Part shown: in pieces, positions 1,173 to 23,814 of the stretch | How positions within the stretch are numbered: the first letter of the stretch is position 1 | Layout: the number at the start of each line of letters is the position of its first letter | DNA from: a virus | DNA: 26,318 nt | Direction: 5' to 3' (one strand) | Virus record (IMG/VR): IMGVR_UViG_3300032282_000167 | Location: 1 to 26,318 of that record | Position numbers and translations under genes: made by a program | The notes under the pieces: generated by a model | What the model was told of the DNA's origin: nothing | Database searches by the model: none | The model's input: the letters and a program-made list of their open reading frames with translations, nothing else

Positions 1173-3356
1173 ATGTCCGCACAAGTAACGATTACCCAAC
1201 TACCAACGGCTGGCGCGATTACGGGCTCGGAGCTCGTACCTATCGTTCAGAATGGGCAGACTGTACAAACAACTACGTCTGCTATTTCCTCGTCGCCAAA
1301 CCAAACATCTCAGTACTTAACTGTCATTCAAACCCCTTTGCTACCTAACAGTCGTGCGCTGTCAGGTGGTACTGGTATTGGTTTAACTGATGGTGGAGCT
1401 CAATCTACCCTTCAGGTGTTCTTGAATGGGGTCTCAGGAAGCCTTGAAACGGCGTCTAACGGGATTATTGTCAAATCTAGTGGCTCAGTAGTCGCTCGTA
1501 CTTTGACAGCCACAGGGAGCGGTTTAAACATTGCTAATGGCAGTGGCGTATCAGGTAACCCAACATTCTCTCTGACTGGTGTTATTGCCTCCGTAGCTGG
1601 GCTGTCTGGTACAGGTATGCTTGCACTGACTGGTGGGGGAACGACTGTGTCTGGTCGTGACTTGACTGGTACAACAGATCAGATCAATGTGGTCAATGGA
1701 AACGGCGCCTCTGGTGCACCGACGTTTAGTATTGCGAGCAACGTGGTGTTGCCCGGCACCTCTGGCATGACCATCCCCAAGGGAACCTCTGCCCAGCAAC
1801 CCGTTGGCGCTGAAGGTCAGTTTCGCTTTAACACCACCACATCCACCTTTGATGGCTATGCCGCAGGTTCTTGGAGACAGTTTTCTCTTGCTGGTGGTGT
1901 GACGTCTTTTAGCGCAGGCAGTACAGGACTTACGCCTTCCACTGGCACTTCTGGTGCTGTTGTTCTAGGTGGGGTCTTAAACGCCTCTAGCGGCGGTACT
2001 GGAGCTAATGGAACGCTGACAGGTTATGTGTATGGAAATGGTACTGGCGCGATGACTGCCAGCACCACAATTCCTAATGCTGGACTTGCTAACAGCTCGA
2101 TCACCATCGGTTCTACCTCTGTGTCTTTGGGCGGAACGATTACCACATTTGCTGGTACATCAATTTCTGGCTCAACCAACACTTTGAGCAACATTGGCAA
2201 CAGCTCGCTTACAAACAGCTCCATCACAATCAATGGATCTTCTGTTAGTTTGGGTGGATCAGTCACCGTAACAGCTACAGCAACAAATGCACTAACCATC
2301 GGAACAGGTTTGTCTGGTACGTCCTACAACGGATCTTCCGCTGTCACGATTGCTATTGACTCAACTGTTGCGACCTTAACTGGCACTCAGACGCTGACAA
2401 ACAAAACGATCAGTGGTTCATCTAACACTCTGACGAATATTGCCAACGCAAGCTTGACTAACTCGTCTGTGACCGTTGGAACGACAGCAATTGCTTTGGG
2501 TGCATCTAGCTTGACGCTAGGTGGTTTAACTTCTGTGGCTGTGACGCAAGATCCAGTGTCAGCATTACAGCTAACAACCAAGCAGTATGTGGATGCAGTA
2601 GCCCAAGGGCTAGACCCAAAAGCATCTTGCGTTGCAGGGACTACCATAAACATTACCTTATCTGGTGCGCAAACTGTTGATGGGGTTGCCTTGGTTGCGG
2701 GTGATAGGTGTTTGGTAAAAAACCAAAGTACAACGGCAGACAATGGTATTTATGTTGTTTCTGCAAGCGCTTGGACTCGTGCAACAGATATGGACACTTG
2801 GGCGGAAGTCCCCGGCGCGTTCACCTTTCTGGAGCAAGGAACAACTCAAGCCGATACAGGTTGGGTATGTACTTCCAATGCAGGTGGAACAATAGGCGTT
2901 ACCGCTATTACATTTGTGCAGTTTGCTGGTGCTGGAACTTACTCCGCTGGAACTGGCCTGACCCTCACAGGCACACAGTTCAGCATCACTAACACTGCCG
3001 TAACTGCCACCTCGTATGGTTCCGCAACACAAGTTGGTACATTTACAGTCAACGCTCAAGGTCAACTGACCCTTGCAGGCAACACCACAGTCACCCCAGC
3101 GGTAGGTTCTATCACTGGTTTAGGTACTGGTGTAGCAACTGCTTTAGCGGTCAATGTAGGCTCTGCTGGCGCCTTTGTGACCTTCAACGGCGCATTAGGC
3201 ACACCAAGCTCTGGTACGGTTACCAACTTGACTGGTACTGCATCAATTAACATTAACGGAACTGTTGGTGCTACGACACCTACAACGGGCGCATTTACTA
3301 CTGTAGCCGCAACAACAGTAACGGCAACAACTGGCATCTTTGGAGGAACATTCTAA
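1173..3356 (+). CDS. Tail fibre protein
   Basis: This 727-residue protein is rich in Gly, Ser, Thr and Asn and very poor in charged residues, as expected for a fibrous beta-structured phage tail protein. The N-terminus (ITQLPTAGAITGSELVPIVQ) looks like a virion-attachment domain of the kind that begins many environmental phage fibres. Residues about 300-460 hold repeats of the form NSSITIxxxSVSLGG and TISGSxNTLxNI. Residues about 455-595 form a more ordered domain (TTKQYVDAVAQGLDP, VAGDRCLVKNQ, NGIYVV, WTRATDMDTWAEV) known from many phage and prophage tail fibres. The C-terminus returns to simple TPTTGAFTTV-type repeats and ends in FGGTF. The stop overlaps the next start (TAATG), so the two fibre genes are translationally coupled and their products probably act together in host recognition. 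Confidence 0.85.
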   Translation: MSAQVTITQLPTAGAITGSELVPIVQNGQTVQTTTSAISSSPNQTSQYLTVIQTPLLPNSRALSGGTGIGLTDGGAQSTLQVFLNGVSGSLETASNGIIVKSSGSVVARTLTATGSGLNIANGSGVSGNPTFSLTGVIASVAGLSGTGMLALTGGGTTVSGRDLTGTTDQINVVNGNGASGAPTFSIASNVVLPGTSGMTIPKGTSAQQPVGAEGQFRFNTTTSTFDGYAAGSWRQFSLAGGVTSFSAGSTGLTPSTGTSGAVVLGGVLNASSGGTGANGTLTGYVYGNGTGAMTASTTIPNAGLANSSITIGSTSVSLGGTITTFAGTSISGSTNTLSNIGNSSLTNSSITINGSSVSLGGSVTVTATATNALTIGTGLSGTSYNGSSAVTIAIDSTVATLTGTQTLTNKTISGSSNTLTNIANASLTNSSVTVGTTAIALGASSLTLGGLTSVAVTQDPVSALQLTTKQYVDAVAQGLDPKASCVAGTTINITLSGAQTVDGVALVAGDRCLVKNQSTTADNGIYVVSASAWTRATDMDTWAEVPGAFTFLEQGTTQADTGWVCTSNAGGTIGVTAITFVQFAGAGTYSAGTGLTLTGTQFSITNTAVTATSYGSATQVGTFTVNAQGQLTLAGNTTVTPAVGSITGLGTGVATALAVNVGSAGAFVTFNGALGTPSSGTVTNLTGTASININGTVGATTPTTGAFTTVAATTVTATTGIFGGTF

Positions 3357-6300
3357 TGGCACAAGCAGGCTACACGCCCATATCTCTCTACTACAGCACC
3401 ACAGCGGCGGCTGTCCCAACTTCTGGAAACCTCGCTTCGGGTGAGTTGGCGATCAACATCACCGACGGCAAGCTGTACTACAAGAACAATTCTGGCGTAG
3501 TGACTTTGCTTGCAGGCGCAACGGCTGGCCCCGCTGGTGGCTCGACTACGCAGGTTCAGTATAACAATGCAGGCGTACTGGCTGGAATTACGGGCGCTAC
3601 GACCAACGGCACTGCACTGACTCTTGTTGCCCCAAATTTAGGAAGCCCAGCCAGCGTGGGAACCATGCCAGCCTTTACTTTGGGCGGCACAGTCTCAGGC
3701 GGCGGCAATCAGATCAACAACGTCATCATCGGAACAACTACTCCGTTGGCTGGTGCGTTTACTACGCTGAGTGCAAGTGGTAGATTTGAGGAAAGCGCAG
3801 ATATTCGATTTATGAATGAGGGCTTTGGCATTGTCAATGCCGCCAATTCTGCGCGAATAATGACTTTTAACAATGCATCAATTACAACAAGTGTTGGTCT
3901 TGCAGTCACAGGAACATTATCAAGCACACTAGACGCAACCATTCAAGGCGTAACTGTAGGTCGTGGTGCAGGTGCTGTGGCTACCAATACTGCGGTGGGT
4001 TCAAGTGCGCTAGTAAATAACAGCACAGGCTCACAAAATACTGCCTTTGGCTATCAGGCTGGATTTGTAATAACTACAGGTAGCCAGAACACTGCTGTTG
4101 GCGCATCCATCATGGATCAAACTGTAGGCGTTACTGGAAGTGAAAATGCCGCTTTTGGTCGTGTCAATATGCGCCCTCTTACTAGCGGTTCCAATAACAC
4201 AGCAATGGGTAACGCAAGTTTAAACTCACTTATTAGTGGTTCAAACAACACTGCCTCTGGGTATCAAGCCCTTGCAACTATTACTTCACAATCTAACAAC
4301 ACCAGTGTTGGGTATCAGGCTTTGTACTTAAACACAGAGTCTTCAAACACAGCCGTAGGCTATCAAGCGGGTTATAACAACGCAGGTGGTGACTACTTAA
4401 CTGTTGTTGGCTCTCAAGCAGGCAAGGGCAACACCTCTGGGCGATTTAACGTGGCGGTAGGCAGGGATGCGCTGTTAACAAATTCAACAAGCAATGACAA
4501 TACGGCAGTCGGAACTAATGCGTTAAAACTCACAACTGCGGCTGGCAACACCGCTGTCGGCTCAAATTCTCTTGGCGTTACCAATTCTGGTTTAAGTAAT
4601 GTTGGCGTTGGCAATGGTGTTTTAACAAGAAACACGACTGGTTCTTACAACGTAGGCGTTGGAGCGGATGCTTTATCCTTTAATCTTTCAGCATCTAGCA
4701 ATACTGCTGTAGGGTTTACGGCTGGTTACGCAAACGTCACGGGAACTGATCTAGTAGCAATAGGCGCTGGAGCCGCGTACAGCACACAAGCCGATGTTGG
4801 CAACATGGCTATTGGTGCAAATGCCTTGTACACAAACAATGGTGGTATTGGAAATACTGCTATTGGAACTCAGCATAGTGGCGTTAGCAATGCCGCTTTG
4901 TATGCCAACACAACTGGCAGTTACAACACTGCCGTTGGTACAAGTGCATTGCGAACAAACATTGGTGGCTCTAACAATACTGCTGTAGGTTATCAAGCGG
5001 GTTATTTAAACACAGGTGCTAGTGGGCTTGCAGTTTTAGGTTATCGGGCCGCATATAAAGCCACTACAGGCTCAGATTTTCTAGTTGCAATTGGAGACTC
5101 TGCGGCATATAACCATGAAACTGGCGCAAGCATGACTGCTGTAGGTCGCAGAGCATTTTATACAAATGTATCTGGAAACGATAACACAGGTGTTGGAATT
5201 AACGCTGGTTATTATGTAACAGGTTCTAACAACACAGCGTTAGGGTCAGCGGCTTTGCAAGGCAATACTGGTGCAACAGGATCAAACAACACTGCTGTAG
5301 GTAAAGAAGCACTCTATTTAAACACTACAGCATCAAACAACACAGCCGTGGGTTATCAGGCGGGGTATACCAATACCACTAGTGCAAGCACTACTTATAT
5401 AGGTGCTTATTCTGGTCTTTATGCAACGGGTGCTAGAAATTCCGCTATTGGCACATACGCTTTGTACGGAACATCGTCAGGAACAAATACAGGAACAGAT
5501 AACACCGCATTGGGTTATGGTTCTATGCAGTCTATTACATCTGGCAGTTACAACACAGCCGTTGGCGGTGGTGATGCAAGCGGTGCCGGAAACCCCTCCC
5601 TGTACAGGATTACAACTGGTAATTACAACGTAGCAGTTGGTAACGGTTCTTTGGGCAATAGCACTTCGGCTTCTAACAACACAGCATTAGGTTATCAAGC
5701 CCTCAACGCCAACACCACAGCATCTAACAATACAGCAGTAGGTTATCAGGCGGCATACAAGACAACTACAGACACTCAGATAGTTGCGATTGGCTACCAA
5801 GCCCTTTATGAAAACACAACGGGCGGTGGCGGCTCGTACAACATTGCAATTGGCCCATCTGCCCAGTACTATGGCAGTACAGGCGCTTACTACAACATTG
5901 CTATTGGTGCGGCGGCAATGATTGGTCAGTCTAACGCAAAGACTGCTTCATTTAATACCGCTATTGGTAACCCAATCACCCCGATTGCATCGGGTGCTTA
6001 CACAATGGGCAATATTACCTCTGGCACATACAACGTGGCTTTGGGTAATGCCGCAATGGGTTTCCTTACAAGCGGCTCGTATAACGTGGCTATTGGCGTG
6101 TCTGCACAACGCAACATCACCACAGCACAGAACAATGTAGCTGTAGGTTATCAGGCGTTGTTTAGCAATACTGCGGGGACTGAAATCACGGCTATAGGTC
6201 ATCAGGCTGGGTATTATTTTAATGGCCCAAGCGCCATCAACACTTATGTTGGTTATAGGGCTGGTTTTAGTAGCACAGGCGCAAACACTTCTGATTACGG

Positions 6301-7060
6301 CAATACTTTTATTGGTTATACGGCGGGTTATTCTGTAGCCAATGCAGGTGGAAGTCAGACTGGTATTTACAACACATTTATCGGTACTAGTTCTGGCTAT
6401 GATGTGACCACAGGCTCCAAGAACACCATCATTGGTCGCTACAACGGCAACCAAGGTGGCGCAGACATTCGCACAGCATCAAACAACATTGTGTTGTCTG
6501 ACGGGGATGGAAACCCACGGGCTTTGTACATTGACACAGGAGGTGTTTACAATTGGGTTTTTACCCAGCAAACAACACCAACAAGAATCAATGCCTCTGA
6601 AGTCATACAAATTGACACTAATGCGTATGGATATGGAATTATTTACTTAGGTACATCAGGAACTGTTGCCAATCGTTTTTACAATCAAAGCAATACATCA
6701 GTTGTTGGACAAATTAGTTTTTCTGGTTTTGTAACAACTTACTCAACAACATCCGATTACCGATTAAAAGAAAACGTCCAACCAATGACGGGCGCATTGG
6801 CTAAAGTTGCAAAACTCAAGCCCGTAACCTACAAATGGAAAGAAGACGGACTTGATGGTCAAGGTTTCATTGCACACGAATTGCAAGAAATTATTCCAGA
6901 AAGCGTTTGCGGAGAAAAGGACGGTATTGATGAACGTGGTGACCCTCAATATCAAAGCGTAGATACATCATTCTTAGTGGCTACATTGACAGCGGCTATC
7001 CAAGAACAACAAGCAATCATTGAATCACTCAAGGCACGTTTGGATGCCGCTAATCTTTAA
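3356..7060 (+). CDS. Giant tail fibre/adhesin with YadA-head-like repeats and peptidase S74 chaperone
   Basis: This 1234-residue protein starts with a GELAINITDGKLYYKN segment (about 28-43) typical of phage fibre N-termini. From about residue 210 to 1040 I count about 46 degenerate repeats of 15-25 residues of the type NNTAVGYQALxxNTTGS. They resemble the left-handed beta-roll repeats of trimeric YadA-type adhesin heads. The last ~100 residues match the intramolecular chaperone of endosialidase-type fibres (peptidase S74): SDYRLKENV at 1133, KPVTYKWK, GFIAHELQEIIPE, and a closing coiled coil. Ser1133 and Lys1138 sit at the spacing of the known Ser-Lys dyad (S-D-x-R-L-K), so the chaperone is predicted to trim itself after trimer folding. 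The protein is likely a receptor-binding fibre. Start is coupled to the previous stop; there is no clear ribosome site. Confidence 0.9.
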   Translation: MAQAGYTPISLYYSTTAAAVPTSGNLASGELAINITDGKLYYKNNSGVVTLLAGATAGPAGGSTTQVQYNNAGVLAGITGATTNGTALTLVAPNLGSPASVGTMPAFTLGGTVSGGGNQINNVIIGTTTPLAGAFTTLSASGRFEESADIRFMNEGFGIVNAANSARIMTFNNASITTSVGLAVTGTLSSTLDATIQGVTVGRGAGAVATNTAVGSSALVNNSTGSQNTAFGYQAGFVITTGSQNTAVGASIMDQTVGVTGSENAAFGRVNMRPLTSGSNNTAMGNASLNSLISGSNNTASGYQALATITSQSNNTSVGYQALYLNTESSNTAVGYQAGYNNAGGDYLTVVGSQAGKGNTSGRFNVAVGRDALLTNSTSNDNTAVGTNALKLTTAAGNTAVGSNSLGVTNSGLSNVGVGNGVLTRNTTGSYNVGVGADALSFNLSASSNTAVGFTAGYANVTGTDLVAIGAGAAYSTQADVGNMAIGANALYTNNGGIGNTAIGTQHSGVSNAALYANTTGSYNTAVGTSALRTNIGGSNNTAVGYQAGYLNTGASGLAVLGYRAAYKATTGSDFLVAIGDSAAYNHETGASMTAVGRRAFYTNVSGNDNTGVGINAGYYVTGSNNTALGSAALQGNTGATGSNNTAVGKEALYLNTTASNNTAVGYQAGYTNTTSASTTYIGAYSGLYATGARNSAIGTYALYGTSSGTNTGTDNTALGYGSMQSITSGSYNTAVGGGDASGAGNPSLYRITTGNYNVAVGNGSLGNSTSASNNTALGYQALNANTTASNNTAVGYQAAYKTTTDTQIVAIGYQALYENTTGGGGSYNIAIGPSAQYYGSTGAYYNIAIGAAAMIGQSNAKTASFNTAIGNPITPIASGAYTMGNITSGTYNVALGNAAMGFLTSGSYNVAIGVSAQRNITTAQNNVAVGYQALFSNTAGTEITAIGHQAGYYFNGPSAINTYVGYRAGFSSTGANTSDYGNTFIGYTAGYSVANAGGSQTGIYNTFIGTSSGYDVTTGSKNTIIGRYNGNQGGADIRTASNNIVLSDGDGNPRALYIDTGGVYNWVFTQQTTPTRINASEVIQIDTNAYGYGIIYLGTSGTVANRFYNQSNTSVVGQISFSGFVTTYSTTSDYRLKENVQPMTGALAKVAKLKPVTYKWKEDGLDGQGFIAHELQEIIPESVCGEKDGIDERGDPQYQSVDTSFLVATLTAAIQEQQAIIESLKARLDAANL
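3983..6480 (+). repeat. Degenerate tandem repeats inside the giant fibre gene
   Basis: About 46 units of roughly 45-75 bases encode the NNTAVGYQA-type beta-roll. Several are close at DNA level, for example copies of a GTAGGTTATCAAGCGG-like core near 4350, 4985, 5345 and 5735. Synonymous drift between copies suggests old duplications kept for structure. Near-identical stretches could support copy-number change by recombination. Confidence 0.85.
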
Positions 7061-7445: not shown

Positions 7446-7682
7446 ATGGGAAAAACAGAAAAGACCCCTGTGACAATCGACGGCGTAGAGTACAAGTTTG
7501 AAGACATGACACAGCAACAGCAGATGTTGCTCAACCATGTTGCCGACTTGGATCGCAAGTTGGACTCGGCAAGATTCAATGTGGATCAGTTGCAAGTAGG
7601 CAGAGATGCCTTCTTCAGAATGCTGAAAGATGCGTTAGAAGCAAAGCCTGAAGAGGCGGTTACTGACGTAACAGTGAATTAA
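7446..7682 (+). CDS. Small coiled-coil protein of unknown function (DUF6447-like pattern)
   Basis: This 78-residue protein has a strong AAAGGAA ribosome site 8-9 bases before the ATG. It begins with a short beta element (VTIDGVEYKFEDM) followed by a long helix with heptad-like hydrophobic spacing (QQMLLNHVADLDRKL...DQLQVGRDAFFRMLKDAL). The layout 'VTIDGxEYxxxDLT, then one coiled helix with a late R/A-rich turn' matches a family of small marine and freshwater phage proteins (I believe DUF6447), whose function is unknown. It sits between two intergenic hairpins at the boundary of fibre and lysis genes. Confidence 0.7.
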   Translation: MGKTEKTPVTIDGVEYKFEDMTQQQQMLLNHVADLDRKLDSARFNVDQLQVGRDAFFRMLKDALEAKPEEAVTDVTVN

Positions 7683-7720: not shown

Positions 7721-7915
7721 ATGGAATCGGTGGATACAAGATTGGCTGTACATGAAGCGATATGCACAGAGCGGTACAACAGTATCGACCGATCCCTGCG
7801 CGATGGGGACAAGCGCATGACGAAGATTGAGTACCTCTTGTATGGGGTGATCGTGTGCGTGTTGTTCGGCCCCGGTGTGGCTGGCGAGCTTATCAAGAAG
7901 GTTTTGGGGTTGTGA
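7721..7915 (+). CDS. Small membrane protein, XhlA/holin-like
   Basis: I start at the ATG at 7721 (64 residues) because an AAGGAA site precedes it; an in-frame GTG at 7700 falls inside the upstream hairpin and is less likely. Residues 1-35 are polar and helical (VDTRLAVHEAICTERYNSIDRSL), and residues about 37-55 form one transmembrane segment (YLLYGVIVCVLFGPGVAG) followed by a short basic tail. A soluble helix joined to one C-terminal membrane span is the layout of the XhlA-type holin accessory proteins. Its position at the start of the lysis region fits that, but function is inferred from topology only. Confidence 0.7.
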   Translation: MESVDTRLAVHEAICTERYNSIDRSLRDGDKRMTKIEYLLYGVIVCVLFGPGVAGELIKKVLGL

Positions 7916-7916
7916 A

Positions 7917-8006
7917 ATGAAGTGGCTGGAAGCTGTCATAGCCGCCGCCGCAATTGTTTGTTTCATAATGGCTGGTACTTACCTCATAGCGTGGGGCGGG
8001 ACATGA
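7917..8006 (+). CDS. 29-residue single-span membrane peptide
   Basis: A short frame starts at an ATG one base after the preceding TGA and stops just before the next gene. It encodes MKWLEAVIAA followed by AAIVCFIMAGTYLIAW and GGT, which is a single membrane helix with almost no soluble part. Its placement inside a tightly packed lysis region, with no room wasted on either side, argues that it is translated. It could be a small holin, antiholin or lysis modulator. No homologue is recognised and it is too short for pattern-based naming. Confidence 0.5.
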   Translation: MKWLEAVIAAAAIVCFIMAGTYLIAWGGT

Positions 8007-8009
8007 TCA

Positions 8010-8297
8010 ATGCGTTGGCTCGTACTGTTACTGTTGTTAGGGCTAGTTGGAGCCGTAGCCAAGAATGGCTGTCACGTTCGCGAGTTCTATGGAATTGGCT
8101 ACACCATCCACAATCCGTCCGAGCGCCATCAGCAAATGATTCAGTGGCTCAAAAACAATGCGCAATATTGCAAGTCCAGCGACTACGTGGTTATCTGGAA
8201 CAATTTGGCAGAGTGGGCGGGTACAGCCGACTCAGCAGAAACTAGAAGTTTAATTATTCATGGATACAAAGATGCACTTGAGCGTGAAAAGAAATGA
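8010..8297 (+). CDS. Small secreted protein in lysis region
   Basis: This 95-residue protein opens with a signal sequence: MRW, a Leu-rich core (LVLLLLLGLVG) and a plausible signal peptidase I site AVA-K at about 17-18. The mature part has two cysteines (Cys21 and Cys54) that could form a disulfide in the periplasm, a GYTIHNPSERHQQMIQWL segment, and a basic tail ending in EREKK. Cys21 is not in a lipobox, so it is not an obvious Rz1-type lipoprotein. The stop overlaps the next start by ATGA. It could be a periplasmic lysis or superinfection factor; function unknown. Confidence 0.7.
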   Translation: MRWLVLLLLLGLVGAVAKNGCHVREFYGIGYTIHNPSERHQQMIQWLKNNAQYCKSSDYVVIWNNLAEWAGTADSAETRSLIIHGYKDALEREKK

Positions 8298-8533
8298 TTC
8301 CGCCGCTTCACAAGTGGTATCCCATGATTGGGGTAGCCGACTATCCAACAAAAACGGATGCGCTTGAGCGCAGGCATCAGCGCCTTGACGAAGAATATAA
8401 ACAAGCTTTGAAGATGACAAAGGTAAAGCACAAAATTGATGAACTTGAGGTTGAGTTGTATGTGAAGAAAGCAGAGCGCAATCAACTTAGCCTTGAGATT
8501 TTTACCAACCGAAAAATAGACATACTGGCATAA
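8294..8533 (+). CDS. Small coiled-coil protein in lysis region
   Basis: This 79-residue protein overlaps the previous gene by four bases (ATGA), so it is translationally coupled. The N-terminus (MIPPLHKWYPMIGVADYP) is followed by a highly charged helix from about 22 to 68 with heptad-like spacing. There is no membrane span or signal, so it does not match an Rz-type inner-membrane spanin by topology, although it sits where one might be expected. No family is recognised. Confidence 0.65.
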   Translation: MIPPLHKWYPMIGVADYPTKTDALERRHQRLDEEYKQALKMTKVKHKIDELEVELYVKKAERNQLSLEIFTNRKIDILA

Positions 8534-8534
8534 C

Positions 8535-9233
8535 ATGGTTACAAAGAAAGTCCCAGCCAAAGTAGCGCCCGTTAAGAGGCGTATACCTAAGCCCAAAATA
8601 GAGGTTATTGTTGCGCCCAAACTTGAAGCTAAGAAAGACGACAGCCCTCTTGGTAAAGTGATTGGCTTGATCGAGTGGGTGGACAATCCGTTTAAACTGT
8701 TCACGGTCATTCTGCTGTCGTTTCTGTTCTTTGCTGGGTACTTTGCGTGGGATTCCCGCACAGTTATTTTGAACGCCATCACAAGCTCAAGCCATCAGCC
8801 GCAACTTAAAGAGATCAAGGTTTTGGAGCACGTAGCTGAAAAACTCAAAAAGGACTTGGAAGCTGAGACTGTTTTGGTTCACAAGGTAGCCCTTGTTGTA
8901 AATAGCAGGATCACGCTACTTTCGTATGGCCCAAAAGGTCGAGACACTACTCTTGATGGCTACAACTCCACCCTGTTTGGCAAAGACGTTGCCCGTAATT
9001 CCGCAGTAATTGCCATGATGAATGGGGAAGTCTATTGCGATAAGCTGGTAGCCTCTGGTAAAACATCCGAGTGGGAAGAAAAACAGGGCGTAGGCTTTAT
9101 TTGCCGTGGCTCCATCCCTCCTGAAATGGGTGCATTTGAGGGGTACATTTCGGTTGGGTTTACCAAAGAACCTTCAGATCTTGGTGCTGTCAAAACTCGT
9201 ATCAATCTAGCCGCCACTGAAATGTCTAAATAA
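8535..9233 (+). CDS. Membrane-anchored protein with large predicted periplasmic domain
   Basis: This 232-residue protein starts one base after the previous stop. The first ~35 residues are very Lys/Pro-rich, then one transmembrane helix spans about 54-72 (LFTVILLSFLFFAGYFAW). By the positive-inside rule the remaining ~155 residues face the periplasm. That part starts with a helix (about 90-120), then a mixed alpha/beta domain (ITLLSYGPKGRD, ARNSAVIAMMNGEVYC, GVGFICRGSIPP, GYISVGF) that vaguely resembles a GAF/PAS-like sensory fold. Cys168 and Cys190 (approximate positions) could pair. I do not recognise a family. Its place between small lysis genes and the holin suggests a role in lysis timing or sensing, which is inference. 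Confidence 0.65.
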   Translation: MVTKKVPAKVAPVKRRIPKPKIEVIVAPKLEAKKDDSPLGKVIGLIEWVDNPFKLFTVILLSFLFFAGYFAWDSRTVILNAITSSSHQPQLKEIKVLEHVAEKLKKDLEAETVLVHKVALVVNSRITLLSYGPKGRDTTLDGYNSTLFGKDVARNSAVIAMMNGEVYCDKLVASGKTSEWEEKQGVGFICRGSIPPEMGAFEGYISVGFTKEPSDLGAVKTRINLAATEMSK

Positions 9234-9242
9234 GGAGCAACT

Positions 9243-9737
9243 ATGTTTGAAATGTTATCTGGAGGCTTGCTAGGCTCCATTTTTGGCGGAATTTTTAGGA
9301 TGGCGCCAGAGGTGCTCAAGTGGCTCGATAAAAAGAACGAGCGCCAACACGAATTGAACATGTTCAAGTTCCAATGCGACTTGGAAGCTCAACGTGGTCA
9401 ACAGAAACTGGCTGAGATTGGCGCTCAACGCGAAGCCGCCATTGACGTAGGCGTGATGGATGCCTTCAACAATGCCATTACACAGCAGGCTGAGATGGTT
9501 AAAGCCGCAGGTGGATGGGTAGCCAGCCTTTCAGCTTCTGTGCGTCCTGTGGTCACATATTGGGTGCTATTTGTGTGGTCGTTCATTCATGTTTGGTTCG
9601 CATGGAACGCATGGTTGGCTGGCGCTCCAGCGGTAGAAGTGTTCAAAACCATGATGACACCAGACTTTTCAGCCCTTCTGTCTGGGACTATCAATTATTG
9701 GTTTCTTGATAGAACTCTTGCCAAGCGTGGTCTATGA
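9243..9737 (+). CDS. Predicted holin, 3TM gene-transfer-release type
   Basis: This 164-residue protein has an excellent TAAGGAG ribosome site 6 bases before the ATG. It has a Gly-rich hydrophobic N-terminus (GGLLGSIFGGIF, about 7-18), a charged helical middle (about 29-90), a membrane helix at about 101-125 (VRPVVTYWVLFVWSFIHVWF) and a final one at about 141-156 ending in SGTINYWFLDRTLAKR. The order 'VRPxxTYW ... LLSGTIxYWFxDRTL' is characteristic of the holin family described for gene-transfer agents (GTA_holin_3TM). It would make the inner-membrane lesion that lets the lysozyme out, and it overlaps the lysozyme start by four bases (ATGA). Confidence 0.8.
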   Translation: MFEMLSGGLLGSIFGGIFRMAPEVLKWLDKKNERQHELNMFKFQCDLEAQRGQQKLAEIGAQREAAIDVGVMDAFNNAITQQAEMVKAAGGWVASLSASVRPVVTYWVLFVWSFIHVWFAWNAWLAGAPAVEVFKTMMTPDFSALLSGTINYWFLDRTLAKRGL

Positions 9738-10174
9738 ACTTAGAACTTGCCGCCGCTCTGTGTCGTCAATTTGAGGGCTACAAGGCTACTCCGTACCTAT
9801 GTCCAGCAGGTATACCCACTGTGGGCTACGGGTCTACCTACTACCGTGATGGGCGCAAGGTAACCTTGCAAGATCCGCCTATGGACGAACCGACGGCTAG
9901 GGCGCTTTTGATGGTGGAGTTAGAGCACACGTACTTGCCGGGAGTCCTTCGCCACTGCCCCATTTTGGCAACTGATGAGCGCAAGTGCAACGCGACCGTG
10001 GATTTTGTTTACAACCTTGGCATAGGGCGCCTCCAAACCTCTACCCTTAAACGTAAAATTAACGCTCAAGATTGGGAAGGCGCCAAAGAACAGCTCATGC
10101 TATGGAACAAAGGCGGCGGTAAGGTTTTGTCAGGGTTAACTAAGCGTAGAGCGGCTGAGTGCGCCTTGTTTTAA
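9734..10174 (+). CDS. Endolysin: GH24 (T4-type) lysozyme
   Basis: This 146-residue protein cleaves the glycan strands of peptidoglycan at lysis. The family's catalytic pattern E-8x-(D/C)-5x-T is exact: Glu14, Cys23 and Thr29, followed by VGYGS. This is the less common variant with Cys in place of the catalytic Asp. The C-terminal half has the usual helical lobe (CNATVDFVYNLGIGRL, LMLWNKGGGKVLSGLTKRRAAE). There is no signal or SAR anchor at the N-terminus, so export should depend on a holin, and the predicted holin lies directly upstream with a four-base overlap. Length is normal for the family. Confidence 0.95.
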   Translation: MNLELAAALCRQFEGYKATPYLCPAGIPTVGYGSTYYRDGRKVTLQDPPMDEPTARALLMVELEHTYLPGVLRHCPILATDERKCNATVDFVYNLGIGRLQTSTLKRKINAQDWEGAKEQLMLWNKGGGKVLSGLTKRRAAECALF

Positions 10175-14588: not shown

Positions 14589-17500
14589 ATGGCACGACCA
14601 GTATTGATGAGCGACGAAGATCTTTACCAACTTACTGGAAGCTGGGAAGACGCCGCCGCTTTAAGAGACGAACAAAACAACGCAATCAACCAATACGATT
14701 GGTCACAACCTGCGGCTGTAACCGCTCCTGTTGCTGAGGCGCCCGTAGTTGAAACGCCAGCTAGTGGTCTTTCTGCTGTGACTAACGGAAAAAGCGTTGT
14801 CCTTGAAGATGCTTCTGCCCCTGAAGTTCCTGAAGTTACAGCTCCCACAACTGGTGCATTAACCCAAGCCATAACCAAACCTTCAGATACGGAAATTGTT
14901 AAGTTTTTGACTGACAACCCTACTGTAAGCGACGCAGATATAGCCACGATTATGAAGACCACTGGGTTAAATCCAGCGGATATAGCACGAGCTACTGGAG
15001 CCAATGTCGCAGATGTAACTACTCGGTTTGAAGCGGCAACTCAGCCTATTGGCGCCCTAACTCGCAGTTTGACACCAGAAGTTGTTGATGCTGATGCGTC
15101 TATACCAGCAACAACAGCATTAACCGCTGAACAAAAAGCAGAGTTGGCAACCAAAGCTGAAACACCAGCCAAGCCAGCAACTGTCAAAGCCGTATTTCAA
15201 GGCAAGAGCTACGATCTAAATGAAAGTGATGTTAATAAAGTCAAGGCTCAGATCTTGGCTCAAGGCACTACATCCAAATGGACTGGCGAAGGGTTTGGAT
15301 CTGCTGATGCCAACGCTGAAGCCATGGCTAAAAACTTGGTCGCTAGTGGTGTTAAAGACATCAATCAAGTTGGCTTGATCGATAAGAAGGTGGATGTTGA
15401 AGTTAGACCTGATGGTAACGGTGGGTTTGTTGATGCCCAAGGAAAAACTGTTGATCCATCTTTGGTCACAACCCAAGAATACGGTGGTGAAGGCGGCGGT
15501 TACACAACATATACAGCCCCTGTTGGAACACAAAAAGTCATAGGCAACAAAGACACTGGTGAAGCTTTAATTAGAGACTACAACGAGACGGACAAAGCAG
15601 GCACTACATGGTCTGGAACCTACGCTGGTAAGGGCAACACAGCCTTTAGAACATCTTTTACCGCCGATGGAAAACCAATTTTCTACACCACTGGTGCATC
15701 TTCCAATGACTTGGTTAAAGCGTTTGCCGATGATCCAATTCTTGGCAAAGTAGCAACTGCCGCGGCGGCGTACTTTGGGGGCCCCGCAGGCGTAGCCGCA
15801 CTTCAAGTTCTGTTAGGCAAGAGCGTAGAAGACATTGCTAAGGGTGCTTTGCTGACCTATTTAGGTGGTGAAGTTGCTGGAAACGTCTCCAGTTCTACTG
15901 ACCTTATCAACACCTTTGGAGCTGATGCCGCTAAGGTAATTGGCAAAACCGCTGGTCAAGTTGTTTCTAGCGAGGGCAAGGCTGATATTCTTTCTTCCTT
16001 CATTGGTAACGGCATCGATGTTGGAACAAACACCCTACTCAACAACATTGATGGGTTTAAAGATCTTAGCGCTGGCGAAAAGGCTTTTGTTACCAATGTA
16101 GCCAAGACTACCATTCAAAACGGTGGCAACTTGTCGATGGATCAGCTTGTTGACGCTGGTATTGCCGCCGCAACAACCGCTGTGAAAGCCGCCAAGACTG
16201 ACACAATCTCTACAGCCATTAAGGCTGACAAGACCGTCAATGACGCTGTAACTACTCAGCTTGACAAAGCATTAACATTTGATGCAACTGGATCGACAGA
16301 CGTAAACGCGGCAAGTCAAGCGGCTGATGCGGCTGGTTACGGTAAGTTCACATTTGATGGCAAAACTTACACAATTGATAACAACAACGCCGCAAACACA
16401 ATCAAAGAGCTAGAGGCTGACGCCCTTAAAACAAACACAGCCGCCAACCTTAAAGGTGGTGAATTTGAGGGCGTAGATGCACAAGCCGCCGCTACTGCAA
16501 AAGCCAACAATACAGTCATTGGAAACAATGAAGCCGACACGCTAGAAGAAGCGCAGGCTTTGGCTAAGTCTCGCAACCCGACTGGTTCTCAATTTACCTT
16601 TGGCGGTCAGACATACAACATGACCGCGTCTGATGCGCAGATGAAAAATGCGGTTCTGGAGGCTAAGCTTAGCGAAGCTACAACTGCGGCTGATGCCAAA
16701 AAAATTGCACTTGCTGAATTAGGTGCCAATGTTTCGTTTAAATGGACAGACGCAAACGGTAAAGAGCAGACACTTGTTACCGCCTCTACGCCAGTCACAA
16801 CAGCTAATTCAGCAAACTCAACAGCCAATGCCACGATCACAAACTATGTGAATGACAAGCTGTCTAAGAATTTGACCAGTGCAGAGTTCAATCCTGCTGA
16901 CTTGACCAAAGACGAGATGTCAAAGTTTGTTAGCACGTACGCTAACGCGACTGACGCACAAAAAGCCACATTGTTAAAAGGTGCAGATTCAATGACGTTC
17001 AAGGTCATTGACACGCTGTTAAAGCAGACTGCCGCACTCAACCCAACTGGGGCGGGAGATGTAGCCGCCCCTGCTGGTTCTACTACTCTCAAAGCTTGGG
17101 ACAAAGGATCAATAGCTACTGCTGTAGACGTAGCTAAAGCGGCTGGTAATGTTGCCGCGGCTGATATTGCTGGTCTTGGTGTTCGTGGAACTCAATTCTT
17201 GGGCGACCTAATGGGTCAAGACACAAACTCTTTTGCTGGTGTACAAAATCTATTAGTCAACGACAAAGACAAGTCTATGTCTAAGTTGGTTGGCAACGAA
17301 AAGGTTATTGCTGGCGGTATTGCCTCTGGAATCGAATCTGCTGTGGCATGGACGATTGGGGGGCCCATGGCGGGAGTTGCCTCCATCGCTGGTGTGGTGG
17401 CTAACAACTCATGGGTTGAGGGCGCCAATGCTGGTTTAAGCGTTACTGATAACGCAAAACGCACGGCGGCTATGACTGCGCTTGAGGTGGCGGGTGAGAT

Positions 17501-19508
17501 GTTGGGGATCCCCGGCATGAAGGTCATCATGAAGGGCATCCCAGTCACTGGGTCTATATCTGAAATCACCAACGCGCTCACTAGAGCTGGCGCTGGACTG
17601 CTTAATGAAAACGCCTCTGAGTTACTGACAACCATTGCCCAATTCAGCGTAGACAAGTTTGCTTCATTTGGTCTAAACAAAAACGCCACGTTTGATGATT
17701 TCCAAACAGCCCTGAAAGACACCATCATTGCCACTACAGCGGCAGTCGGTACGTCTAGCGGCATTTCTACAGCCACAAGAGCGGCAAGCGGTGCAAACAC
17801 TACGCAGATTGCGGATGCTGATCGTACTGCGGTGTCTCCTGATACATCTTTGTTGACCAGTGGCGCATCCTTTGGCGCTAAAGTTGGTGACACTTCAAAC
17901 CAAGGCGTTAATCAAGTTAGCAGTGAAGCCATTGACTTCAACAAGCTAGATCCGTCAAAACAAACAACAATTCTTGACAGCTTGCGTAGCAATATTGCAA
18001 ACATAGGATTGTCAGCGGCTCTGACACTTGGATCTCTTGCAAATGCAACCGAAGTTGAGACGTATGTAAACAACTCTATTCAGACAGCCGCTAGTACTGG
18101 CGCTAATGTAGAGACAGCGATCAATACGTCTGTCTCTGGCTCAATCAACTCTGCCATCAACAACAAGGTTAGCACAGAGACAGCTATAAGTTCAGCGGTA
18201 TCTTCTGCTGTTACGTCTGCTGTCAACAACAACGTCAACACAACTACAGCTATCAACAGCGCCGTTACTTCTGCTGTAAATACTGCCTCGACTAGCGCCG
18301 CAAGCACTACAGCCGCTGTGACGACAGCCGTGGACTCTGCTGTATCAACTGCGATCAGCACAAGCGTTGCCAACAACACTTTGACTGCGGCTACGGTTAA
18401 CACAGCGGTAAATACTGCCGTTAACTCTGCCGTAACCGCCGCTGTTGCCAACAACGTAAGCACCACAACCGCTGTCAATACTGCTGTTACAGCCGCTGTA
18501 ACCGCCGCTGTAACAAACAATGTGAGTGTTGCCGACGCAGTCACCGCCGCGGTTGCCTCAGTAACAAATTTAAATGTGAATGTTGCGGCTGTGACCGCCC
18601 TTGCTACAAATATAGCTAATGAGACTTTGGTTAAAAATGACCTAGTCAACAATATCAACACTTTAATTGGTGTAACTACGACGCCTGTGACTCCTATCAC
18701 GCCTGTCACACCTCCTCCCCCTCCTCCTCCCCCACCGTCTCTCCCCCCGCCCCCTGTGGTGACGCCCCCTGTAGTTGAGCCGCCTGTGGTGATTCCTCCT
18801 GTTGTTGTTCCTCCTGTGGTTACGCCCCCACCTACAACAACCAGTTCAAAGACAACAACGGCAAGCTCTGGAATGCTTCCAGCCGTCATGATGGCTGGTG
18901 ATATTGCGCGCCTGCCTCCGCAGATGCTCAAGGCGTACATGACACAAGACAAGTTTGTGGATCCTCTTGCTCAACTACACGCTTTGCAAGAAAACACGAA
19001 TGCTGAGAAAATACAGTCAGCACCTCAAGTTAAAACACAGGAACCAGATATGCCAGATCAAGGCACTTGGAAATACGGCAACGCTCCAGACGACCTAGAC
19101 ACGTTGTTTGCCGAAGACAAAGTCGCTCCTGCTTTTAAAGCTGGTGGCTATGTTTCCCCCCTACAAATGGCTTCTGGTGGCGCTATGCCCTTGCCCTTGT
19201 TGGTTAAGTCTGGTGGCGCCTTGGGTGCGATGCCTCGACCTGATGGTCGTTTGGACTTCCGCCACGGTGCGCACGTAGCTGGTGACGGAGATGGGCAGTC
19301 TGACGACATCAAAGCCATGTTGGCTGACGGTGAGTTTGTCTTCCCTGCGGACGTAGTTTCTGCGCTCGGAAATGGCTCAACCAAGGCTGGTTCAGATAAA
19401 CTATACGAAATGATGCACTCAATTCGTGAAAGAGCACGGTCTAAGAAGCCAAAAGACCTGCCACCACCTGCATTGAAATCACCCCTAGATTACCTAAAGA
19501 AACGGTAA
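14589..19508 (+). CDS. Giant internal virion/ejection protein (tape-measure-like)
   Basis: This 1639-residue protein is probably carried inside the capsid and ejected to help move DNA across the envelope, like the large inner proteins of T7/P22-like phages. The N-terminus holds SDxELYxL-like and Ala/Thr/Pro-rich helices. Modules with an F-x-x-G-K/Q-x-Y core occur at about 204, 585 and 665, with a degenerate one near 716. Hydrophobic helices at about 389-411 and 908-938 could insert in membranes. Residues about 1155-1365 are low-complexity Val/Ala/Thr/Asn repeats, followed by nine consecutive prolines (1375-1383) and PPVV repeats to about 1415. The C-terminus (about 1517-1639: MLADGEFVFPADVVSALGNG, SDKLYEMMHSIRERAR, PLDYLKKR) matches a conserved end seen in large podoviral internal proteins. 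Confidence 0.8.
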   Translation: MARPVLMSDEDLYQLTGSWEDAAALRDEQNNAINQYDWSQPAAVTAPVAEAPVVETPASGLSAVTNGKSVVLEDASAPEVPEVTAPTTGALTQAITKPSDTEIVKFLTDNPTVSDADIATIMKTTGLNPADIARATGANVADVTTRFEAATQPIGALTRSLTPEVVDADASIPATTALTAEQKAELATKAETPAKPATVKAVFQGKSYDLNESDVNKVKAQILAQGTTSKWTGEGFGSADANAEAMAKNLVASGVKDINQVGLIDKKVDVEVRPDGNGGFVDAQGKTVDPSLVTTQEYGGEGGGYTTYTAPVGTQKVIGNKDTGEALIRDYNETDKAGTTWSGTYAGKGNTAFRTSFTADGKPIFYTTGASSNDLVKAFADDPILGKVATAAAAYFGGPAGVAALQVLLGKSVEDIAKGALLTYLGGEVAGNVSSSTDLINTFGADAAKVIGKTAGQVVSSEGKADILSSFIGNGIDVGTNTLLNNIDGFKDLSAGEKAFVTNVAKTTIQNGGNLSMDQLVDAGIAAATTAVKAAKTDTISTAIKADKTVNDAVTTQLDKALTFDATGSTDVNAASQAADAAGYGKFTFDGKTYTIDNNNAANTIKELEADALKTNTAANLKGGEFEGVDAQAAATAKANNTVIGNNEADTLEEAQALAKSRNPTGSQFTFGGQTYNMTASDAQMKNAVLEAKLSEATTAADAKKIALAELGANVSFKWTDANGKEQTLVTASTPVTTANSANSTANATITNYVNDKLSKNLTSAEFNPADLTKDEMSKFVSTYANATDAQKATLLKGADSMTFKVIDTLLKQTAALNPTGAGDVAAPAGSTTLKAWDKGSIATAVDVAKAAGNVAAADIAGLGVRGTQFLGDLMGQDTNSFAGVQNLLVNDKDKSMSKLVGNEKVIAGGIASGIESAVAWTIGGPMAGVASIAGVVANNSWVEGANAGLSVTDNAKRTAAMTALEVAGEMLGIPGMKVIMKGIPVTGSISEITNALTRAGAGLLNENASELLTTIAQFSVDKFASFGLNKNATFDDFQTALKDTIIATTAAVGTSSGISTATRAASGANTTQIADADRTAVSPDTSLLTSGASFGAKVGDTSNQGVNQVSSEAIDFNKLDPSKQTTILDSLRSNIANIGLSAALTLGSLANATEVETYVNNSIQTAASTGANVETAINTSVSGSINSAINNKVSTETAISSAVSSAVTSAVNNNVNTTTAINSAVTSAVNTASTSAASTTAAVTTAVDSAVSTAISTSVANNTLTAATVNTAVNTAVNSAVTAAVANNVSTTTAVNTAVTAAVTAAVTNNVSVADAVTAAVASVTNLNVNVAAVTALATNIANETLVKNDLVNNINTLIGVTTTPVTPITPVTPPPPPPPPPSLPPPPVVTPPVVEPPVVIPPVVVPPVVTPPPTTTSSKTTTASSGMLPAVMMAGDIARLPPQMLKAYMTQDKFVDPLAQLHALQENTNAEKIQSAPQVKTQEPDMPDQGTWKYGNAPDDLDTLFAEDKVAPAFKAGGYVSPLQMASGGAMPLPLLVKSGGALGAMPRPDGRLDFRHGAHVAGDGDGQSDDIKAMLADGEFVFPADVVSALGNGSTKAGSDKLYEMMHSIRERARSKKPKDLPPPALKSPLDYLKKR
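18050..18690 (+). repeat. Val/Ala/Thr/Asn repeat tract in giant internal protein gene
   Basis: The region encodes runs of four-residue units such as TAVN, SAVT and AAVT interrupted by NNVSTTT-like spacers every 20-35 residues. At DNA level the units are degenerate GCTGTTAC / GCCGTAAC variants. The tract gives a long open frame on the opposite strand that is not a gene. Confidence 0.8.
18711..18838 (+). repeat. Polyproline and PPVV repeat tract
   Basis: C/T-rich DNA encodes nine prolines, Ser-Leu, four more prolines, then repeats of the type VVxPP, about five times. This would form a stiff polyproline-II linker between the Val/Ala repeat region and the conserved C-terminal part. Confidence 0.85.
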
Positions 19509-20425: not shown

Positions 20426-22168
20426 ATGGCAGATAAATCAGCACCAAATTTAACTTTTGCAATTGGCTCAGAAGCCATGCAAGAGTATTTAGACGCTCAA
20501 AAGAATGCTCGAGAAAAGTTAGATGATCGTAGCAATCGTTTGTTTGATCCAACCATGCTTGCCATGGCTCAGGGCTTCTTAGCGCCTACTAAAACAGGTG
20601 GTTTTGGTGAATCGCTGGGCAATGTAGCCGCGCAGGTGGGCCCCGCTCAAGCCGCTGAAGAAAAGCGCATCATGGACATGGCTAAGATGCGTTTGGAAAT
20701 GGCTCAACAAGGTGTCCAGACTGAAATTCAAACAAAACAAGCTCAAGACAGACAACGGATTATCAATCAAGAGTTGGGCGAAGAATCGCCTTTTGGTAAA
20801 CCCCCCGTAGCCGCACAGCCTGCTCCACAACCTGCTCCACGTCCCGCACCTCAACCTGCTGGCGCTTTGCCCTCTGCGCCCAGTGGTCAGCCGCCCCAAG
20901 CTCCTTCTGCGCCTTTGTCTGCACCTTTGTCTACGGCACAGCCAGCACCTGCACCTATGCCAGCACCATTGGCTCAAGCACAACCAACGCAACAAGCACA
21001 GCAAGCGCCTAGCGGAACACAGTTGTTCCCTGCACAACCTTATCCCCTTGACGCTGAAGAGCGCAAATTATTTGCTCAAGGTATTGCGGCTAATAAAGAT
21101 CCGTATGAGATCCGTAAAGACATCAATGAAGCTCGTCGCAAAAACATTCAAGTAAACCAAGCGGGTACTTCTGCGGTGAATTTAGGTACTGGTAAGCAAT
21201 ACGGGTTTGATCCAACGCCTACCAAGACTTACATCCATGGCTACGGGAATGTAGATATTCCTGCAACATACGCAAGGATGCTTGGTGACGCTCAGGATGC
21301 GGATGAATATGCCAAGATTGCCAAGATGATTATGTTTGGGCCTCAAGCCAAAACGCCAGCTCCTTCTACACCTAACGCAACACCTACTGGGGCGGCTCCT
21401 GCTGGGGCTCCATTGCAAAGACCAACAACATCACAAGCAGACGCTGATGCCGCTCGCCTTAGAGCAGAAGCTGAAGCGGAAGCTAAAGGCTCCGCAGATC
21501 GTACAAACGCCGCTAAGAACTTGTTTGCCCCTGCACTTGAGACTCGAATCGTTGCTCAGTCTGCCAAAGATCTTGTCAATCAAGAAGGTGGTAAGTTGGT
21601 CATGGGCATCTTTGAGAAGCCTAAAGTTGGTTCTATTTTGGCAAAAATGATTGACGAAGGTACGTTCTCGCCAATTGGTTTTCGTGACGCTATGGTCGCC
21701 TCTAACATTGCTTTTAGCGTTGACCAAAAGCCCAATGAAAATTCTGAGCAGTACACAGAGCGTAAGCAAGCAATTTTGGATCGCTACTACCAAACAGCGA
21801 CCATGGTGGCTCGTGCCAAGTTTGAGGCTAGTAAGTTGGCTCAAGGTCAGGGTGCATTCTCTGACGGCGAGCGTCGCTTGTTTGCTGACACCACGCTTAG
21901 CATGAAAGACTCTGTAGCTACAATCAACAAAAAAGCTGACATGTTGATTGAGCGTGCAAACTTTGCTCAAAATCTTTCTCGCGAGATGAGTCGTTCACGC
22001 ATGAACTACGACACCTTTGTTGACTCCCCACAGGGTCAGAAGATGATCAAGGACTACGAGAAGCGTTTGAGTAACATTTGGACTGGTAAGGTCGCTGGAG
22101 CCTCTAAGCCTGCTGGCAGACCAGACATAGACGCGGCGCAAGCAAACGTAGAGAGGCAAGTTCAATAA
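20426..22168 (+). CDS. Probable internal virion (ejection) protein with Pro/Gln-rich linker
   Basis: This 580-residue protein follows the previous gene by 21 bases, with a GAGG ribosome site. The N-terminal ~120 residues are helical (MLAMAQGFLAPTKTGGFGESLGNVAAQ, then a long coiled helix with EIQTKQAQDRQR). Residues about 126-205 are a disordered Pro/Ala/Gln linker. Residues about 300-560 are mostly helical, with a GQGAFSDGERRLF motif (about 470-482) that resembles a conserved phrase of podoviral inner proteins. The stop overlaps the next start (TAATG), so it is coupled to the transglycosylase and probably forms part of the same ejection complex. No catalytic motif is seen. Confidence 0.65.
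   Translation: MADKSAPNLTFAIGSEAMQEYLDAQKNAREKLDDRSNRLFDPTMLAMAQGFLAPTKTGGFGESLGNVAAQVGPAQAAEEKRIMDMAKMRLEMAQQGVQTEIQTKQAQDRQRIINQELGEESPFGKPPVAAQPAPQPAPRPAPQPAGALPSAPSGQPPQAPSAPLSAPLSTAQPAPAPMPAPLAQAQPTQQAQQAPSGTQLFPAQPYPLDAEERKLFAQGIAANKDPYEIRKDINEARRKNIQVNQAGTSAVNLGTGKQYGFDPTPTKTYIHGYGNVDIPATYARMLGDAQDADEYAKIAKMIMFGPQAKTPAPSTPNATPTGAAPAGAPLQRPTTSQADADAARLRAEAEAEAKGSADRTNAAKNLFAPALETRIVAQSAKDLVNQEGGKLVMGIFEKPKVGSILAKMIDEGTFSPIGFRDAMVASNIAFSVDQKPNENSEQYTERKQAILDRYYQTATMVARAKFEASKLAQGQGAFSDGERRLFADTTLSMKDSVATINKKADMLIERANFAQNLSREMSRSRMNYDTFVDSPQGQKMIKDYEKRLSNIWTGKVAGASKPAGRPDIDAAQANVERQVQ
20803..21030 (+). repeat. Pro/Ala/Gln low-complexity linker
   Basis: CCTGCTCCA-like units encode PAPQPAPRPAPQPAG and then Pro/Gln/Ala-rich sequence, a probable flexible linker between two helical domains of the internal protein. 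Confidence 0.7.
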
Positions 22169-23814
22169 TGGCTGATCTTAAACTCACCTTCCTAAACAAC
22201 AAGCTAAGTAAAGAACAGCTTCAGATGGCGGAGAAGGTGGCAAAAGCCGCCGCCGCCATGGGTATTGATCCTTCGTTTGCCGTTTCGATTGCTTTCAAAG
22301 AAGGTAGCCTTAACCCCGACACCATTGATCATCCCCAAACAGGCGCAATTGGGATGATGCAAATCATGCCAGATACTGGTAAGGCTTATGGCTACTCCGA
22401 AGCAGATTTGCGCAAGCCTGAAATCAACCTTATTGCTGGACTTAAGAACCTCAAAGAGTCTTTGGCTTACGCAAACAACAAGCCAATGTTGGCGGCTGTT
22501 TATTACCACAGCGGCCCTGACGCGATTGCTGACCAAGCCGCTGGCAAGCCGTTGGGCCCTAACGCGCTGAAGTACGTCAAAACCCTCAAAGGTTTTGGTA
22601 CGTTTGACGCCTTTAACCCAGACTTCAAAGCCCCCGCTGAACAAGAAGCACCTGCCGCGTCACAAGAGTCTGCACCCGCCCCACCAGAGGCTCCCTCAGC
22701 CGCTAATTTAGGTGATGCAAAAATCCTAACGCCTGAACAAGACTTTATTCGCCCAAATTCACTTGCCGACCTAAAGCGTCAACAGTACGGATTGGTTGGT
22801 GCATTGGGTGGAACTGCTGTCGCCGCCGCTCCTTACATTGGAACAACTGCGGCTGGTACGGCAGGTCGAATGATCAGGGCGTTCAATGATGCCAGACAGC
22901 CTTCTACAGCCCCTACAGGCGGTTTGCCGACTGGTGGCGCACCTACTCCACCACAAACAGCCCCAAGCGCTCCTACGGGCGGTTTACCCAATGTTCAAGG
23001 TCAGCCTGTAATGGGGGTTGCCGACGCAGGTCGAATGGCTCAAGGTCAAACAGGTGTAATTCCTTACAACACCGCCAAAGCGCTCGGTGTAACGGACATT
23101 GAGGCTGGTCAAGCTTTGACTAACACCAAGCAACAGGGTGGTGCTTGGGATATTGCAACAAAACGTGCTGAGGCTCTGAATAAGCTCCAAAGCATGGGTA
23201 TGGGTAATTTCAACGAGAACCCGCTTTATGGCGGCATCATGACTCAGGCGCCCAGCGTCGGTGGTGGTGTACGAGTAGATCCAGCAACTGGCACTCCTCA
23301 GTCTTTTGCCATGCGTGTACCTGAGACTGGTCAAGTTGGTCAGACTGCTGAGCTTCAAGCAATTCCAAAGGCGCCTGTCATTCCCACAACGCCTCCACCA
23401 CTTTCTGGCTTAGACCAAGTCAAGAACATGTTTACCAACATGATGAAATACAGTGGCACCGCTTTGCGGTATGTTGCCCCACCCTTAGCTGGTTTGAGCA
23501 TCGGTCGCGACTTGGCTGACATGGAGTCTCAATACGAGCGTGCTCCTATGGAGCGTGACTACACAGACATGGGTTTGAGCCTTGCTAGTGCCTTGGCTAC
23601 GGGTGCTTCACTAACTCCAGCGTTCCCTGTTGCCGCGCCTTTGAGCATTGCTATACCAACCTATCGCAACATTCGTAGGAACGTGCTTGCCCAAGAGTCA
23701 GATCCTGAACTTCAGCGCAGGAACAAAATGGAGCCTACAGAAGCAGAACTTGAGCTTGCATCACAGCCAGCTTTCCGTTATGGTAGATCTGGTATACGCT
23801 ACCCCAATCCTTGA
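22168..23814 (+). CDS. Virion-associated lytic transglycosylase (SLT domain) ejection protein
   Basis: Residues about 14-150 of this 548-residue protein form a soluble-lytic-transglycosylase domain: catalytic Glu45 in AFKEGSLNP, GAIGMMQIMP at 59-68, and AAVYYHSGP at 109-117, all in family order. It would open a local hole in peptidoglycan for DNA entry. Pro/Ala-rich linkers follow at about 153-175 and 245-275. The C-terminal region (about 425-520) has hydrophobic and amphipathic stretches (YVAPPLAGLSIG; GLSLASALATGASLTPAFPVAAPLSIAI) that could touch the membrane, and it ends in a GRSGIRYPNP tail. It is the last gene of the plus-strand block and directly precedes a strong terminator. Confidence 0.88.
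   Translation: MADLKLTFLNNKLSKEQLQMAEKVAKAAAAMGIDPSFAVSIAFKEGSLNPDTIDHPQTGAIGMMQIMPDTGKAYGYSEADLRKPEINLIAGLKNLKESLAYANNKPMLAAVYYHSGPDAIADQAAGKPLGPNALKYVKTLKGFGTFDAFNPDFKAPAEQEAPAASQESAPAPPEAPSAANLGDAKILTPEQDFIRPNSLADLKRQQYGLVGALGGTAVAAAPYIGTTAAGTAGRMIRAFNDARQPSTAPTGGLPTGGAPTPPQTAPSAPTGGLPNVQGQPVMGVADAGRMAQGQTGVIPYNTAKALGVTDIEAGQALTNTKQQGGAWDIATKRAEALNKLQSMGMGNFNENPLYGGIMTQAPSVGGGVRVDPATGTPQSFAMRVPETGQVGQTAELQAIPKAPVIPTTPPPLSGLDQVKNMFTNMMKYSGTALRYVAPPLAGLSIGRDLADMESQYERAPMERDYTDMGLSLASALATGASLTPAFPVAAPLSIAIPTYRNIRRNVLAQESDPELQRRNKMEPTEAELELASQPAFRYGRSGIRYPNP

Follow-up and report, generated by a model that had tools for sequence, protein, structure and literature searches.

The window analysed here, that is, the whole 26,318-base virus record, comes from a tailed phage, as tail-fibre and adaptor genes (PF24175) flank the region of interest (Table 1). 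The original prediction described positions 7721-9737 as a crowded lysis region with membrane and secreted proteins. B, C, D, F, G and the lysozyme are confirmed as its components, but gene E had been missed; likewise, the cassette is real, but a boundary at 9737 leaves out the lysozyme gene, which is part of it. Positions 7721-10174 represent a conserved phage holin/endolysin lysis cassette, a module of ordinary type. Outside the cassette, the 1234-aa tail-fibre-like protein (3356-7060) contains many repeats of the motif 'NTAVGYQAG', and its C-terminal domain looks like an intramolecular chaperone. Moreover, the 1639-aa and 548-aa proteins encoded at 14589-19508 and 22168-23814 are probably ejection proteins, the N-terminal part of the latter matching internal virion and lytic transglycosylase families.

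Table 1. Genes of the lysis region and its borders (window coordinates)
Feature	Position	Strand	Description
Tail-fibre gene	ends 7060		Upstream border of the region
A	7446-7682		Between the tail-fibre gene and B
B	7721-7915	+	64 aa; N-terminal half soluble, followed by a C-terminal membrane helix (40-58)
C	7917-8006	+	29-aa single-span membrane peptide
D	8010-8297	+	95 aa; secreted (signal sequence), with invariant Cys at 21 and 54 and a four-helix fold
E	8294-8533	+	79-aa soluble charged protein, no membrane helix; start overlaps the D stop
F	8535-9233	+	232 aa; hydropathy gives one membrane helix (53-71)
G	9243-9737	+	164-aa membrane protein, phrog_6637
GH24 phage lysozyme (endolysin)	9734-10174	+	Pfam PF00959, E 1.4e-32
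Adaptor gene	from 10222		Downstream border of the region

The seven small genes from B to the lysozyme were traced in relatives, A not being among these. All seven are under purifying selection, with median dN/dS values against relatives of 0.08 (B), 0.12 (D), 0.13 (E), 0.07 (F), 0.04 (G) and 0.06 (lysozyme). For the 29-residue C the signal is weaker (0.52), and the C family, of about 31 aa, is found in 129 relatives. The low dN/dS of six genes, together with the occurrence of the C family, therefore indicates that these genes are real and conserved. E is present in all 52 complete loci recovered with D and travels with it, and B is swapped for an unrelated protein, B2, in some relatives. The 29-residue membrane peptide and the signal-peptide protein of the original prediction correspond to C, which has one membrane helix, and to D, whose predicted structure has a pLDDT of 89.6. 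B, by contrast, had been called XhlA-like, but neither Pfam nor PHROGs gives an XhlA match, and the resemblance is one of layout only. Four of the conserved genes, B, C, D and E, count as accessory genes with no role assigned.

The GH24 lysozyme has no membrane segment and no signal-anchor sequence and, because of the latter, it needs a holin. F, which had been read as a large periplasmic single-span protein, does possess one membrane helix, but its role is reassigned here, most likely to that of a holin. F matches phrog_31287 over residues 42-227 (E 2.4e-24), a family to which PHROGs gives no function and for which a holin role is proposed here; Pfam contains no family for F at E<=1, and a PDB sequence search with F and D returned no convincing match. 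In an AlphaFold2 model built on 30 aligned relatives, helices at residues 38-48 (amphipathic), 52-85 (membrane) and 88-108 (bridge) precede a GAF-like alpha/beta periplasmic domain at residues 112-231 (block pLDDT ~74-94). The holin T of phage T4 has an amphipathic helix, then membrane and bridge helices and lastly a globular domain, a domain structure that has been called unique among holins (PMC12162936). The model and hydropathy of F show this same layout, with one membrane helix and the globular domain in the periplasm. In general, length, helix layout and GAF-like domain are common to F, to T (gene t; PDB 6PSK, 6PX4, 6PXE) and to the T5-like relatives of T. Specifically, the top VIA-align chain for F is the periplasmic domain of T (6psk_T, Z 14.3, tied with GAF domains), residues 92-232 of F aligning with residues 77-216 of T (rmsd 2.8, 131 residues), and Foldseek retrieves 6pxe_F with E 5e-6 and 6psk_T with a TMt of 0.72. 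The fold match to T proves little by itself, the GAF fold being common and the scores tied. Among F proteins, a common N-terminus and membrane helix are combined with two clearly different types of periplasmic domain (the L002 type and the L059/L061 type), which look as if this domain had been exchanged separately.

At the level of single positions, two features are kept in the F family: the first helix ends with an aromatic residue, which is W48 in F and Y or W in relatives, and a basic residue (K54 in F) lies at the membrane border. In T4 T, F22 and R34, located beside the membrane helix, are each essential, and W48 and K54 may be their equivalents by position rather than by secure alignment. 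F differs from T in that the two proteins have no significant sequence similarity, the cytoplasmic tail of F is longer and Lys/Pro-rich, the F gene sits in a cassette beside the lysozyme, and no RI partner was identified for F. An F profile scores the T protein of phage Banach at 6.8-11 bits, near noise (best decoy, 2.7-4.3), and hhalign gives F versus T a probability of up to 33%, against 99.8% for known T5-like versus T4 holins. The same profile-profile method misses the relation between G3 and G3b, two proteins of sister cassettes, though both match PF11351. Pfam, PHROGs, hhalign and HMM comparisons do not place F in the T family. Sequence comparison cannot prove descent; the claim is therefore limited to F working like T, not to F being a proven member of its family. 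In bacterial genomes (GTDB contigs; two query alignments) F was not found.

The genes of 296 relative loci were clustered and their order was read off. In complete loci the slot of F is occupied either by F or by H2, a two-helix protein of 92 residues that weakly matches the holin family phrog_1527 (E 0.058). The D search gives 37 loci with H2 and 15 with F, and the lysozyme search 26 and 11, respectively, none with both proteins and none with neither; these counts are not fully independent, some contigs recurring between searches. The F search yields 50 F, by construction. The D, E and G proteins flanking F in locus L022 and H2 in locus L126 are 91-95% identical, and D of the window is 97% identical to D of the H2 locus L247. 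At a minimum, the D tree requires 23 F/H2 changes, the E tree 22 and the G tree 16, compared with shuffled means of 46, 46 and 33. This strict one-for-one exchange supports the functional equivalence of F and H2, the latter filling the F slot in sister phages.

The exchange also bears on the idea that D acts on F as an RI-like antiholin of the periplasm, the two proteins forming a T/RI-like lysis-inhibition pair outside the T4-like phages. T4 RI has 97 aa and a cleavable signal peptide (PMC8385771), features that resemble the size and secretion of D, which is in addition helical and has two invariant Cys. Nevertheless, D is found just as well beside H2, a protein lacking any large periplasmic domain, and the number of F/H2 changes on the D tree is much like that on the E and G trees. 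Given that F and H2 are exchanged between near-identical flanks, it is therefore unlikely that D is dedicated to F. The fold matches of D include no RI, which was not among the chains compared. As D has no sequence link to RI and is common to F and H2 backgrounds, its candidature as an RI-like antiholin was rejected, and we regard this role as improbable.

A search of annotated phages identifies 11 records with F relatives. In Edwardsiella phage GF-2, a putative antitermination protein Q is followed by the F relative, lysozyme, Rz and a nested lipobox Rz1, and in Vibrio phage IKEMa6-1, which has no annotation, the ORF order is Q-like, F, lysozyme, Rz and nested lipobox Rz1. The F relative is the sole holin candidate of both cassettes, neither of which contains a G-like gene. 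In the T4-like phages S13, Ci1 and LPCS28, an F relative is present and T4 holin T is undetectable, T being found in T4, Banach and 60AhydR15PP. In other words, F relatives occur in the holin position and, in S13, Ci1 and LPCS28, stand in for T. The succession of holin and lysozyme is reminiscent of the lambda-type S-R-Rz-Rz1 cassette, Rz/Rz1 also being part of it in GF-2 and IKEMa6-1, whereas the window form is without them and has B, C, D, E and G as extra genes. We consider it probable that F serves as the main holin, in the manner of T4 holin T; hole formation and its timing are what we infer from the observed architecture, gene position and one-for-one exchange of F. The suggestion of an unrecognised lysis timing system holds in so far as F is unannotated, F itself being best explained as a holin of T4 T type. 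The previously unrecognised part of the cassette is most likely just this, a T4-T-type holin that a two-helix protein can replace one for one.

The presence in the same cassette of G, a second holin candidate, counts against reading F as the holin. The genes 3′ of the holin slot form distinct modules, each with its endolysin: G with GH24, G3 with GH108, G3b with M15 and Lp68-TM2-Rz-Rz1 with GH19. G3 and G3b match the family GTA_holin_3TM (PF11351), which includes TeaA of phage ICP1, a tested holin (PMC7182436). G itself has no match to PF11351; it is linked to this family by occupying the slot of G3 and G3b, which its own family, phrog_6637, weakly matches. From this position and this weak match it follows that two proteins of holin type are probably encoded in the window, with G probably acting as a second, endolysin-linked holin of GTA_holin_3TM type or as a holin modulator. 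Alternatively, the actual holin could be G, in which case F (or H2) would serve as an antiholin or regulator and sense a signal through its GAF-like periplasmic domain. The overlap of the G end with the lysozyme start, the constant association of G with the GH24 type, the family of its sister-slot proteins and the arrangement in AcaML1, where a G relative adjoins the lysozyme without F, all favour this reading. It is difficult to reconcile, however, with GF-2 and IKEMa6-1, which combine F and lysozyme without a G-like gene in the cassette, and with the GH19 sister cassettes, which have no G; it is accordingly judged unlikely, and F is retained as the main holin. In GH19-type sister cassettes, a conserved 68-aa Cys-rich lipoprotein (MxxLLLxLLLTGCKDVYRYPCQNP...; L047:5720-5926 and L051:1691-1897) sits between E or F and a two-helix membrane protein, and matches no known family.

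The original prediction saw no canonical Rz/Rz1 pair, and this observation is borne out. A lipobox scan of the window gives no Rz1 candidate, nested or otherwise, its only two lipobox ORFs lying on the minus strand as shadows within a large gene of the plus strand, and no lipobox o-spanin and i-spanin were found in the window cassette. Applied to six contigs (49-74 kb), the scan likewise turns up no convincing o-spanin, and the lipobox matches in other contigs are mostly shadow ORFs. Searches of 14 other related contigs (up to 74 kb, none shown to be complete) found no Rz/Rz1, a single weak Rz1-family match being interrupted by a stop. The Rz and Rz1 families are matched in two GH19-type contigs and, among the relatives of the window, Rz/Rz1 are confined to those sister cassettes whose endolysin is of GH19 type; the proposed search for a nested Rz1 frame is thus negative in the GH24-type window and positive in GH19-type relatives, GF-2 and IKEMa6-1. 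Both the missing pair and the conservation of the small genes measured by dN/dS agree with what had been predicted. The absence of spanins alone is not rare, as 91 of 677 phages of Gram-negative hosts are without them (PMC6139136). As a separate observation, a 68-kb relative (G013, the record of L216) has two Rz-like genes, at 31815-32240 and 63874-64326, each accompanied by an Rz1-like lipoprotein.

An outer-membrane disruption system had also been envisaged; in one such reading, D, E or C would replace Rz/Rz1. The lack of a spanin in the window and in the 14 related contigs and the secretion of D are consistent with such a function. On the other hand, D and E, and often C, are also found in GH19 sister cassettes that have a full set of Rz and nested Rz1, and D is near neutral, unlike a cationic disruptin-like peptide. 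D and E do not replace spanins in the GH19 type, and this co-occurrence led us to reject them as spanins; a disruptor role for any of the three proteins appears very improbable.

Taken together with the preferred reading of F as the main holin, a working model can be proposed. F would expose an amphipathic helix to the cytoplasm, cross the membrane with a single helix and carry its globular periplasmic domain on a bridge helix. It would assemble in the inner membrane and, when triggered, open holes, and the signal-less GH24 lysozyme would then reach the cell wall. A more far-reaching version, which we hold to be a long shot, would be that these aquatic phages have two holins in one cassette, F of T type and G of 3TM type, and that secreted D joins the GAF-like periplasmic domain of F in a T/RI-like sensing and timing circuit outside the T4-like phages, lysis being completed without spanins by an undescribed route.

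A diverged family with the layout of T, to which sequence search does not link it, would widen the kind of holin that T represents. As F and H2 naturally replace each other one for one between near-identical flanks, they provide a direct test bed for how the type of holin sets lysis timing, and the F family, which occurs in hundreds of uncultivated and a few cultured phages, would offer an experimental series. Finally, the contrast between the GH24 type, in which no spanin was recognised, and sister cassettes with Rz/Rz1 makes release through the outer membrane in such phages testable.
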